DNA of 64,000 nt from contig NZ_JAETXX010000005.1 in NCBI RefSeq assembly GCF_021764745.1, positions 124,001-188,000 of the forward strand, in the 5' to 3' direction. Of the stretch, positions 32,882-36,499 are shown piece by piece. Position 1 is the first letter of the stretch. Each line of letters starts with the position of its first letter. The stretch comes from Joostella atrarenae. Lineage in GTDB: Bacteria; Bacteroidota; Bacteroidia; Flavobacteriales; Flavobacteriaceae. The notes beneath the pieces are model-generated. The model saw only the letters and a program-made list of their open reading frames with translations. It had not been told where the DNA came from and did not search any database. A program made the position numbers and the translations under genes.

Positions 32882-34267
32882 ATGAGAAAAATATTATTAC
32901 TTCTTTTATTAAGCACTATAGGATTTGCTCAAGAGAAAGAGATAACCTTAGGAGTTGTTCAAGATTCCCTTAAAATAAATAATACAAAAGACACATATGC
33001 AGTCTACCTTCCTTCTAATTATGATAAGGAAAAGGAGTGGCCAGTAATTATGTTATTTGATCCCTCTGGAAGGGGAAAAGTTGCAGTTGAAAATTTTGTA
33101 GAAGCTGCAGATAAGTACGGTTATATAATAGCTGGATCTAATGGGGTTGAAAATACTACATATCAAGAAAGTCTTGGTGATGCAAGAGTTTTTTATAGTG
33201 AAGTTTTAAGACGTTTTAATATTGATGAGAGTAAAATTTATCTAGGAGGCTTTTCCGGCGGCGCTAGGTTAGCAGTTTCTGTTGCTGTCATTGCTAAAAA
33301 GATAAAAGGAGTGATTGCCTGTGGCGGTTCTTTTGCAAGTGTAGATGCATATACTCCTAAAAAGAATAGTTTTTTATATGTTGGAATAGTTGGGGATGAG
33401 GATTTTAATTATAGAGAAATGAAAAACTCACATTCTTACCTTACTAGATTAAAATTCGATCCAGATCTTCTTTTATTTTCGGGGGAACATGTATGGCCTC
33501 CTAAAGAATATATTACCAAAGGGGTTAGGTTACTAACTTTAAAATCAATGACTCGTAATATTATTCCTAAAGACCAAAATAGAATAAAAGAATTTTATGC
33601 TGAAGATTTAGAATTTAACGATAAGTTGGTTGGCAAATTGGAATTGCTCCGTGCGTATAACGATTTGGATGAAATGATGGAGAATTATCGTTTTTATTTT
33701 GATGATGATACTATGAAAGAGCGTCAAAAAGAAATCAGAAAAAATAAAATATATAGAACTCAACGTAATAATGAATATGAAGTAGATGAAATTGAGTCTA
33801 ATTTTTATGTGGATTACTTAACATATTTACCAAAAGATATTGCTGCTGGAGACTTAGGTTCTTTAATTTATTGGGAAGATGAGTTGAAATCAATTAATAA
33901 AGATTTTATAAATAGCTCAAGTGAAGCAAAGCGAAAAATGGGGAAGAGAGTTCTTAATTTTTTGAGTGTGCTGCCAAATGAGTTGTCGTCTTCATATAAC
34001 GAGACCGAAGCACTTGATAACCTCTTGTATATTAATATATTTGAAACACTTGTTAATCCAAAAGCATATGATGCCTATCTCTCTGTTCTAAAATATACTG
34101 TGAAACGAGGGGATTATGGAGTCGCATTATATTATCTTGAAAAGATGTTAGATAATGGGTTTACAGATACTGATAAATTGAACACCCAACAAGGAATTAC
34201 ACTTTTAAGAATTCAGCCAGAATATAATGACTTGCTAGAAGCATATGGTTTAGAAGCTATGTACTAA
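32882..34267 (+). CDS. Exported esterase-like protein with helical C-terminal domain
   Basis: The 461-residue product has a signal peptide (1-17, TIGFAQ). Residues 30-215 look like an alpha/beta hydrolase: YAVYLPSNYDKEKEWPVIMLFDPSG, then the nucleophile elbow GGFSGGAR (GxSxG) and GGSFAS. From about 230 to the end the protein is helical and charged, with a possible TPR-like pattern (YLEKMLDNGFTDTDKLNTQ near the end). The hydrolase substrate is unknown. Catalytic Asp and His cannot be assigned with confidence, although HVWPPKE is a candidate His site. A strong terminator follows. Confidence 0.65.
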   Translation: MRKILLLLLLSTIGFAQEKEITLGVVQDSLKINNTKDTYAVYLPSNYDKEKEWPVIMLFDPSGRGKVAVENFVEAADKYGYIIAGSNGVENTTYQESLGDARVFYSEVLRRFNIDESKIYLGGFSGGARLAVSVAVIAKKIKGVIACGGSFASVDAYTPKKNSFLYVGIVGDEDFNYREMKNSHSYLTRLKFDPDLLLFSGEHVWPPKEYITKGVRLLTLKSMTRNIIPKDQNRIKEFYAEDLEFNDKLVGKLELLRAYNDLDEMMENYRFYFDDDTMKERQKEIRKNKIYRTQRNNEYEVDEIESNFYVDYLTYLPKDIAAGDLGSLIYWEDELKSINKDFINSSSEAKRKMGKRVLNFLSVLPNELSSSYNETEALDNLLYINIFETLVNPKAYDAYLSVLKYTVKRGDYGVALYYLEKMLDNGFTDTDKLNTQQGITLLRIQPEYNDLLEAYGLEAMY

Positions 34268-34286
34268 CTATTTATCATAATATAAA

Positions 34287-34327
34287 AAACGACAAATAGA
34301 CTCCTTTTTAGAGTCTATTTGTCGTTT
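34287..34327. terminator. Bidirectional terminator between the esterase-like gene and the MFS gene
   Basis: AAACGACAAATAGACTC (34287-34303) pairs perfectly with GAGTCTATTTGTCGTTT (34311-34327), a 17-bp stem with a 7-base loop. Confidence 0.85.
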
Positions 34328-34378: not shown

Positions 34379-35587
34379 TCATTCATTTATATTTTTGGTA
34401 ATTCTATGTTTTAAATAATACAATAGCACACATGCTATAATTCCAAGGAAAGTCATAATTCCCCAAGTAAATTCATACCCAAAAGAATCTATTAAATGAA
34501 ATCCAGAGTTATGACCTAGGATGTGCGAAAAAGAAAAAGCAATGCTGTAAAGAGCTAGGTATTCACCTTGGTTTCCACGTTTAGCACGGTTTAATGCAAA
34601 AGCATTCGAAAAAGGAAATACAAGCATTTCTCCAAAACTCATTAATATCATTCCGATCACGAGAACACCAATCCACGATGAAATATTAAGCACTAAAAAA
34701 CTTAAAAGTGTTAATACACATCCAATGATTACGTTTGTTATAGAACCCCAAGATTTTCTCTCAAAATACTGAACTAAAGGCATTTCGAAAAGAAAGATTA
34801 AAAACCCATTGAAGCCTAATAACAAGCCAATATCACTTTCAGTTAAATAAAATAATTCTTTATAAAACAACGGTACTGTAGAAAAATATTGCAAGAATAT
34901 AAATCCGAATAATATCATTGCGACAAAGAAAATCCAATATGGAACATCCTTGTATGCTGATTCTGGAGCCTCATTTTTAGAATCGTCTAATACCTTAGCT
35001 TTTTTAGGATTTAATACATTTAAAAGAAGAATTCCTGCAAAGAAGCAAGTAATTCCATCTACCCAAAAAAGTCCACCATAGCTCATGTTAGTAATAATGA
35101 GTCCGCCAATAGCTGGGCCAGCAGAGAACCCTAAATTAATAGCTAAACGAATAAGAGTTACAGATCTTGTTTTATTTTCAGGCTTACTATAGGCACTTAG
35201 TGCCACAAATACCGCAGGACGAAACATATCTGCAACTAATATGACTATAAAAATTCCTATACAAATACTCCAAAATGTCTGTAAAAATTGAAGCGCAATA
35301 AAGCATACAGCTGAGCATAGCAAGCTAAAGGTCATTATTTTATAATATCCAATCTTGTCGGTAAGTTTTCCTCCAATCCAAGAGCCAACTACAGAACCCA
35401 AACCAAAGAATGTCATAATCCAGCCAACGTCACCTAAAGTGAAATTTAGTTTTTGGGTTAGATATAATGAAAGGAAGGGGATTACCATAGTTCCTGCTCT
35501 ATTAATTAATGTAATTAGAGCAAGCCACCATACCTCTTTAGAGAGTCCTTGAAAAGATGAAATGTACCCTGAGTATAGTTTTCTCAT
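34379..35587 (-). CDS. MFS transporter preceded by a leader-peptide attenuator
   Basis: The 402-residue product has 12 predicted membrane helices, with the MFS loop 2-3 motif GSWIGGKLTDKIGYYK and a central charged loop (PKKAKVLDDSKNEAPES) between helices 6 and 7. The group is typical of drug or metabolite exporters in Flavobacteria; the substrate is not known. Its mRNA leader is unusual: a 25-codon Cys-rich ORF and an intrinsic terminator stand before the ATG, 23 bases after the terminator. That points to control by cysteine (or Cys-tRNA) supply, and therefore perhaps to a sulfur-related substrate. This link is inference. Confidence 0.88.
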   Translation of the reverse strand: MRKLYSGYISSFQGLSKEVWWLALITLINRAGTMVIPFLSLYLTQKLNFTLGDVGWIMTFFGLGSVVGSWIGGKLTDKIGYYKIMTFSLLCSAVCFIALQFLQTFWSICIGIFIVILVADMFRPAVFVALSAYSKPENKTRSVTLIRLAINLGFSAGPAIGGLIITNMSYGGLFWVDGITCFFAGILLLNVLNPKKAKVLDDSKNEAPESAYKDVPYWIFFVAMILFGFIFLQYFSTVPLFYKELFYLTESDIGLLLGFNGFLIFLFEMPLVQYFERKSWGSITNVIIGCVLTLLSFLVLNISSWIGVLVIGMILMSFGEMLVFPFSNAFALNRAKRGNQGEYLALYSIAFSFSHILGHNSGFHLIDSFGYEFTWGIMTFLGIIACVLLYYLKHRITKNINE

Positions 35588-35610
35588 CGGTTGATAGTTT
35601 TAGTGGTTAT

Positions 35611-35643
35611 AAAAAAAGCCCAACGTTTTGGCGTTGGGCTTTT
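35611..35643 (-). terminator. Intrinsic terminator in the MFS mRNA leader (candidate attenuator)
   Basis: On the minus strand AAAAGCCCAACG pairs with CGTTTTGGGC-side arm CGTTGGGCTTTT in mirrored order (arms 35632-35643 and 35614-35625; loop 35626-35631), followed by seven T residues. No other minus-strand gene lies upstream except the 25-codon leader ORF, so this terminator can only act on the MFS leader transcript. Confidence 0.85.
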
Positions 35644-35667
35644 ATAAAATAGTAATGAAATTACATA

Positions 35668-35745
35668 TTACATCATACAAAAGCACCTACAGCGTAGCTT
35701 TGAGCACACCGAAATATTAGTATATGTTGTAATAAGTCGCATCAT
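35668..35745 (-). CDS. 25-residue Cys-rich leader peptide
   Basis: The frame runs from tandem ATG codons (35740-35745) to TAA (35668-35670). The peptide starts MMRLITTYTNISVCSK and continues with LRCRCFCMM; cysteines fall at positions 14, 19, 21 and 23, i.e. four in the last 12 residues, with Arg codons between. A TAGCTTTG promoter element lies 16 bases upstream and an intrinsic terminator 25 bases downstream. This is the arrangement of a translation-coupled attenuator. No similar peptide family is named here because none could be searched. Confidence 0.6.
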   Translation of the reverse strand: MMRLITTYTNISVCSKLRCRCFCMM

Positions 35746-35761
35746 TTTTAATTTATATCAA

Positions 35762-35769
35762 CAAAGCTA
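35762..35769 (-). promoter_or_regulatory. -7 element (TAGCTTTG) of the leader/MFS transcript
   Basis: The minus strand reads TAGCTTTG, a TAnnTTTG match; the start of transcription would fall about 10 bases before the leader ATG. No TTG -33 element is seen at the right distance. Confidence 0.5.
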
Positions 35770-35789
35770 CTTAAAATAGCTATAAGTTG

Positions 35790-35797
35790 TATTTTTG
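35790..35797 (+). promoter_or_regulatory. -7 element (TATTTTTG) of the DUF1684 gene
   Basis: TATTTTTG fits TAnnTTTG and lies 33 bases before the ATG. It diverges from the MFS leader promoter. Confidence 0.5.
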
Positions 35798-35830
35798 TTT
35801 TTTGAAAAAATTCAATAAAAATAAACACAG

Positions 35831-36499
35831 ATGAGATTATCTTACATTTTTACATTAGCCTTCCTAATATTATTTATGTCTTGTAAGGATGATAAAAAAT
35901 ATCATGATGATAAAGATGTTGTTGAGGTTGCAAAAAAAGAAAAAGATACAATTTTAACGGCTCAGCAATCAATATTGAATTTTCAAGAAGAGATCAATAA
36001 AGAGTTTTCTGATGCTGAGAAAACACCACTTACAAAAGAAGATTTTGCAGGCTTTAAGAGTTTAGAGTTTTTTCCAATAGATACTAGTTTTAATCTAGTT
36101 GCAAAATTAGAACGTACTCCAAACGAACAACCTTTCTTAATGCCAACAACAACAGAAAGAAAATCTAAAGAGGTTTTGTACGGTGTTTTATACTTTGAAT
36201 TGCAAGGAGAAAAATTTTCATTGAATGTATACCAGAATCAAGAGTTAAAGGAAACTTTAGAATACAGAGATTATTTGTTTTTACCATTTTCTGATAAAAC
36301 TAATGGAAAAGAAACCTATGGAGGTGGGCGGTATTTAGATCTTCGAATTCCAGAAGGAGATTCTATAACTATAGACTTTAATAAAGCATATAATCCATAT
36401 TGCGCATACAACAAGAAATTTTCTTGTCCTATTGTTCCAGAAGAAAATACTTTAGATATTGCTGTTACTGCGGGAGTTAAAAAGTTTAATCATAAATAG
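35831..36499 (+). CDS. DUF1684 lipoprotein
   Basis: The 222-residue product has a lipobox ending FMSC (Cys19) and a Lys/Asp-rich linker. The DUF1684 hallmarks are present near the end: LFLPFSDKTNGKETYGGGRYLDL, then the NPYCAYNKKFSCPIVPEEN segment with its Asn-Pro-x-Cys-Ala-Tyr motif. The family is frequent in Bacteroidetes and its function is unknown. Lipidation predicts a periplasm-facing envelope protein. It is divergent from the MFS leader region. Confidence 0.88.
   Translation: MRLSYIFTLAFLILFMSCKDDKKYHDDKDVVEVAKKEKDTILTAQQSILNFQEEINKEFSDAEKTPLTKEDFAGFKSLEFFPIDTSFNLVAKLERTPNEQPFLMPTTTERKSKEVLYGVLYFELQGEKFSLNVYQNQELKETLEYRDYLFLPFSDKTNGKETYGGGRYLDLRIPEGDSITIDFNKAYNPYCAYNKKFSCPIVPEENTLDIAVTAGVKKFNHK

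Follow-up and report, generated by a model that had tools for sequence, protein, structure and literature searches.

A probable ribosome-mediated transcription attenuator with a drifting leader peptide upstream of an MFS exporter gene in Joostella atrarenae and its relatives

In a 64,000-nt stretch of the Joostella atrarenae genome, hereafter the window, the interval 35588-35830 separates a gene for an MFS transporter from a divergent DUF1684 gene, and its minus strand carries a leader that raises the question of what this RNA senses and how it might set the transcription of the transporter. An earlier note had read the leader as a candidate Cys attenuator. The elements that it named (promoter box, 25-codon ORF, four Cys codons, terminator, MFS start and antiterminator) are all present in the sequence, and the reading as a leader-ORF transcription attenuator is well supported by comparison with relatives, whereas its specificity for Cys is unsupported. 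The features of the locus, with the evidence for each, are as follows.

35762..35769, minus strand: promoter box TAGCTTTG of the TAnnTTTG type (sequence; the box is also common in related leaders)
35668..35745, minus strand: leader ORF, 25 codons plus TAA (translation; ORF retained in 124 of 136 distinct leaders)
35721..35737, minus strand: arm 1 of the ORF-long hairpin (single-sequence fold; swap test, 111 of 124)
35663..35679, minus strand: arm 2 of the ORF-long hairpin, including the stop codon (fold; swap test; pair counts)
35679..35690, minus strand: antiterminator core GTAGGTGCTTTT (pairing fold; swap test, 115 of 124; pair counts)
35611..35643, minus strand: intrinsic terminator (sequence and fold)
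34379..35587, minus strand: MFS transporter of 402 aa, a probable drug exporter (domain, family and solved-protein matches)

The box at 35762..35769 is presumably of the Bacteroidetes -7 type. The leader ORF starts with a tandem ATG at 35745, encodes the 25-codon peptide MMRLITTYTNISVCSKLRCRCFCMM with Cys at codons 14, 19, 21 and 23, and ends with its TAA at 35668. Three competing pairings are seen in this RNA, namely the hairpin of arm 1 with arm 2, the pairing of the antiterminator core with the 5' arm of the terminator, and the terminator itself. The terminator arms (35643-35632 and 35625-35614) form 12 bp around a loop of 6 and are followed by a T run to 35611, the end of which lies 23 bases from the MFS ATG (35587); a simple terminator scan omitted the 35643-35614 terminator, and folding recovers it. 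The antiterminator GTAGGTGCTTTT lies within the ORF and pairs with the 5' arm of the terminator with one bulged base inside GGTGC (-9.6 kcal/mol; L014). The 158-nt leader (35762-35605) folds at -46.9 kcal/mol, as compared with -25.5 (sd 3.19) for shuffles (z -6.71), and its best fold is a single long hairpin over the ORF followed by the terminator. In this fold the antiterminator is held mainly by 35716-35712 (codons 10-12) and not by the AAAGC of codons 15-17, with which the earlier note had said it can also pair.

Two observations concern the flanks of this unit. The DUF1684 gene (35831-36499, plus strand), which diverges from the MFS leader, has its own TATTTTTG box, also of the TAnnTTTG type, at 35790-35797 on the plus strand, and the divergent promoter pair looks conserved because a CAAAAATACAAC-like block also stands upstream of many relatives' leaders. 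At the other end of the transporter gene, a terminator-like palindrome with an 18-bp stem (34287-34327) lies in the gap where the MFS gene and the gene at 32882-34267 converge, and is perhaps a two-way terminator common to both.

Of 299 genomes in the family, 173 have an MFS orthologue with an E-value of 1e-80 or lower, and six of the seven genomes of the genus have one at 1e-60. A terminator is recognized by rule in 137 of the 153 MFS upstream regions examined (149 from the family search and four more from the genus search), and 136 distinct leaders form the comparison set. An ATG-to-stop ORF occurs at the corresponding place in 124 of these 136, as compared with 5.9% in dinucleotide shuffles, the ORF windows having been chosen post hoc after inspection of the leaders; the later counts use these 124. 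The ORF spans 22-28 codons in 119 of them and ends in TGA (81), TAA (32) or TAG (11). In addition, 105 of 124 leaders carry a TAnnTTTG box no more than 45 nt 5' of their ATG, with a median gap of 20 nt, as compared with 2.9% of shuffles, and the other two frames are open across the ORF span in 39 and 19 of 124, frame 0 being open by construction. Among 28 loci lacking a terminator or an ORF by rule, six score above 45 bits with a covariance model.

Within the J. atrarenae genome, covariance model R1 finds one strong place at 55.7 bits, and the next of the 15 places listed reaches 33.3. R1 matches at E <=0.001 occur in 75 of 149 relatives, some of the searched genomes having also contributed sequences to the model, and the weaker matches are probably plain terminators. 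There are 44 R1 places above 50 bits, of which 38 were examined, all of them directly upstream of an MFS orthologue. The pattern is uneven further away: among 28 more distant orthologues (six from the same family and 22 from other families of the class), box, ORF and terminator occur together in two (L189, from the same family, and L195, from family f20), a terminator-like site occurs without the full set in six, and no terminator was found within 330 nt in the other 20. Terminator and gene lie 17-130 nt apart in those 31 leaders for which the distance was measured, and in one genome (G005, with leaders L003 and L015) about 300 nt of extra sequence lies between the leader terminator and the MFS gene; these distances fit transcriptional rather than translational control. 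Comparison of the leaders shows that the predicted elements (promoter box, start, stop and length of the ORF, hairpin, antiterminator and terminator) are kept while most residues of the peptide drift.

The competing pairings were assessed by a swap test, in which each leader's own partners are compared with partners taken from dissimilar leaders. For the ORF-long hairpin the own partner is better in 111 of 124 leaders (p 1e-18), and for the antiterminator in 115 of them (p 1e-20), with p-values that count related leaders as independent, a relatedness that weakens every test. The rival pairing that the earlier note had drawn between GTAGGTGCTTTT and the 5' arm of the terminator is conserved in this comparison, with covariation. 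Three control pairings (arm 1 with the terminator arm, spacer with the terminator arm, and arm 1 with the spacer) are null in the same test over the 124 leaders. In 43 aligned leaders, the named pairs of the hairpin and the antiterminator form in 86.0% and 86.6% of cells, respectively, as compared with 19-61% and 32-46% when the same pairs are slid, and the cells with changes on both sides beat shuffles, being reached by 2 and 0 of 500. The number of pairs with two-sided changes is reached in 10 of 500 shuffles for the antiterminator, which is exceptional, and in 59 of 500 for the hairpin, which is not. Since the RNAalifold consensus returned the terminator alone, the hairpin and the antiterminator rest on single-sequence folds, swap tests and counts of the named structures. 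A further pairing, between arm 2 and the spacer from the stop to the terminator, forms in 83% of cells in 43 similar leaders and is not claimed, since the swap test lends it little support (66 of 124, p 0.01).

The effect of a translating ribosome was modelled at equilibrium only, by folding the leader up to the terminator loop with 31 nt around the P site kept unpaired, a footprint size that we assume. Over the 124 leaders, a P site at codons 1-13 gives a mean modelled capture of the terminator 5' arm of 0.71-0.79, which falls to 0.53 at codon 14, 0.34 at codon 15 and 0.13-0.25 at codons 16-21, and stands at 0.30 once the stop codon occupies the A site; capture under an early stall exceeds capture under a finished ribosome in 116 of 124 leaders. 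In the window's own leader, modelled capture is 0.00 without a ribosome, 0.64-0.88 at codons 1-13, 0.73 at codon 14, 0.27 at codon 15, 0.00 at codons 16-20 and 0.21 at codons 21-22. By this model, a finishing ribosome should favour termination and a ribosome held early should favour read-through. The free leader RNA has a mean capture of 0.64 in the same model, and a stall lifts capture by more than 0.2 above the free RNA in just 33 of 124 leaders, which does not sit well with a strict three-state model; in many species the ORF-long hairpin may be unable to prevent read-through when the leader is not translated.

We propose that this leader is probably a ribosome-mediated transcription attenuator in front of the MFS exporter gene, with failed translation in general as its signal. 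A ribosome completing the ORF would cover the antiterminator, so that the terminator forms, transcription stops and the pump stays off. A ribosome stalled within roughly the first 13 codons would leave the antiterminator free to capture the 5' arm of the terminator, so that transcription continues and the pump is made. The signal is taken to be a general failure to finish translation because no residue is strictly kept. Such a mechanism, if it holds, would explain how a widespread exporter gene is kept silent for as long as translation runs normally.

The nature of the transporter bears on the likely inducers. Its domain is MFS_1, its top-ranking NCBIfam hit, which falls short of the cut-off, is a multidrug-resistance superfamily, its nearest solved protein by sequence is NorA, and it contains GFSAGPAIGG, which we take to resemble the antiporter motif found in drug-exporting pumps. 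The likeliest reading of these matches is a drug exporter that translation inhibitors would induce. As the gene resembles drug exporters, translation inhibitors are likely inducers, and the likeliest natural ones would be ribosome-targeting compounds, some of them possibly exported by the pump.

The substitution pattern addresses the role of the peptide. The 232 substitutions counted across 21 independent close pairs include 63 synonymous ones (27.2%, as compared with 24.5% expected; p 0.36), the changes at codon positions 1, 2 and 3 number 79, 65 and 88, and the changes in the leader peptide look neutral overall. No residue besides the start is invariant over the 124 leaders. Some constraint on residues may nonetheless exist, since changed Lys codons (0.35, as compared with 0.18 expected) and Gln codons (0.38, as compared with 0.20) show an excess of synonymous changes. 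One codon in the antiterminator reads TGG, CGG or AGG in 43 aligned leaders (first base T in 29, C in 11 and A in 3), and G is retained at the next two bases in 43 and 42 of 43; since the first base varies and both G are retained, it is the bases and not the residue that are kept. Leader codons are slightly rarer than in shuffles in 88 of 124 leaders, a small effect. Acidic residues are scarce in the ORF frame (1.65%, as compared with 5.3% and 8.5% in the other frames), which is not read as selection on the peptide because the 5' arm is G-poor and the leaders share ancestry. Codons 2-13 of the 124 leaders also show a marked composition, with Ala, Gly, Asp and Glu together at 1.5%, as compared with 26% in 42 ORFs of the window, and an overuse of ACC and GTC; this bias is probably a side effect of the pairing between one arm rich in A and C and another rich in G and U.

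A more far-reaching version of our proposal, to which we give an even chance, is that the leader ORF is a translatable track only, with start, stop and length selected and residues left to drift, which gauges completion of the ORF whatever the cause of failure and is wired to one exporter in much of the family. If this is true, Bacteroidota would have in it a natural sensor that responds to a broad range of translation inhibitors.

Other readings of the leader were weighed against the same data. A drug-specific arrest peptide, by which one class of inhibitor would stall the ribosome at a particular residue context, is unlikely. Such an arrangement is known for several antibiotic-inducible leaders (PMC4335068; PMC12121999), and the excess of synonymous changes at Lys and Gln codons is in its favour. 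However, the overall synonymous fraction is not above expectation, and the start is the sole invariant position.

Sensing of another amino acid, for which Thr is the best candidate, is decidedly unlikely. Thr occurs within codons 2-14 in 120 of 124 leaders (at least twice in 92), and ACN codons make up 15.8% in the ORF frame, as compared with 5.5% and 5.0% in the other frames. The Thr operon leader also gave the lowest E (0.012) in a relaxed Rfam search of 35560-35830, but at 24.4 bits, under the gathering score of 55, and this match is most likely driven by the terminator. Against Thr sensing, Lys and Val, each present in 116 of 124 leaders, are almost as frequent, and changed Thr codons are synonymous in a neutral-like fraction of 0.31, as compared with 0.33 expected, in independent pairs (0.41 in all pairs). 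Furthermore, the third base of the Thr codons depends on position in a way that suggests RNA pairing: at codon 6, 40 of 55 Thr codons end in A, whereas at codon 13, 56 of 59 end in C or T. The early Thr, whose presence in 120 of 124 leaders had prompted this reading, is judged to be mostly, though perhaps not wholly, RNA-driven.

A ligand-binding riboswitch or a protein-bound leader, with the ORF incidental, would account for the strong and conserved structure and is quite improbable given that 124 of 136 leaders retain the ORF and between them use all three stop codons, that the other two frames are open in 39 and 19 of the 124, and that Rfam 15 gives no match at the gathering score in the 64,000-nt window.

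The Cys attenuator of the earlier note, in which the ribosome would pause where Cys codons are decoded slowly and so allow transcription of the exporter, is very improbable as the general mechanism. The window leader has four Cys, Cys reaches 2.0 times its shuffled expectation over the 124 leaders with at least one anywhere in 110, and a ribosome paused at Cys 14 falls within the modelled read-through zone. Conserved Cys codons in relatives, which the note had said would support its reading, are however not seen: 14 of 124 leaders have no Cys and 58 have one, and codons 2-14 hold at least one in 69 and at least two in just one. Cys changes are mostly non-synonymous (4 of 34 synonymous in independent pairs; 0.18 expected). 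Cys 14 is the sole Cys codon 5' of the antiterminator and has no counterpart there in the five other leaders of the genus, and Cys 19, 21 and 23 of the window leader overlap the antiterminator. The codon counts and the substitution pattern lead us to reject Cys specificity. In the window species, as the fold model has it, a Cys shortage could still act through a stall at Cys 14, as would a shortage of any early residue.

An independent small RNA that precedes the MFS gene by chance, with the MFS start site downstream of the terminator, is compatible with the sequence and with the complete promoter-to-terminator unit, but is hardly credible, given that a plain small RNA would not need the conserved, covarying pairing of antiterminator and terminator arm and that the strong R1 places examined stand directly upstream of MFS orthologues.

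The general attenuator thus remains our preferred reading, and it describes an RNA switch conserved among many Flavobacteriaceae-type genomes. Leader attenuators are usually spotted by conserved control codons or an arrest peptide, and since neither is clear here, searches based on the peptide would miss such leaders. If the mechanism holds, the leader also offers a ready reporter for ribosome-targeting compounds in Bacteroidota. A literature search, with most subscription papers outside its scope, showed no report of an attenuator upstream of an MFS gene in this phylum.

The mechanisms that come nearest, bmrB-bmrCD, mef(E)/mel and toiL, are all from outside Bacteroidota. In bmrB-bmrCD of Bacillus subtilis, an exporter is controlled through a short ORF that is translated, stem-loops that compete and a terminator, ribosome-targeting antibiotics induce it, and induction stays intact after codon optimisation (PMC4191407). 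The window leader resembles it in placing an exporter behind these same parts. By comparison, the bmrB ORF has 53 codons with the terminator inside, whereas the terminator of the window leader follows the ORF, and bmrCD is an ABC transporter of a Gram-positive bacterium, whereas the window system serves an MFS pump and has residues that drift across a bacterial family. Mef is an MFS pump. In mef(E)/mel of Streptococcus pneumoniae, a leader peptide, stem-loops and a Rho-independent terminator precede the Mef efflux gene, the 8-residue leader peptide MTASMRLR is needed for macrolide induction, and the system is carried on mobile elements (PMC4335068). The likeness lies in the efflux gene behind a leader peptide, stem-loops and a terminator, and the difference in the required 8-residue peptide and the mobile elements. 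In the toiL uORF of Escherichia coli, pairing spans the ORF, so stalls anywhere can act and several antibiotic classes are sensed (PMC12121999). The window leader shares such ORF-long pairing; toiL, however, acts on topAI translation and Rho-dependent termination, in contrast to the intrinsic terminator and antiterminator seen here.

Closer in lineage, leader-peptide attenuation before amino-acid biosynthesis operons is reported for Flavobacterium psychrophilum, for which 64 structured 5' regions are also listed (PMC9723704), and leaders of the window type could be among the 64. These leaders share the attenuation principle and the bacterial family with the window leader, but precede amino-acid operons, whereas the window leader precedes an exporter and has no fixed control codon. 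Short ORFs reminiscent of leader peptides are likewise reported in 5' UTRs of Bacteroides thetaiotaomicron (PMC7366714). The logic of the switch is therefore already known, and it is the unconserved leader peptide that is unusual.
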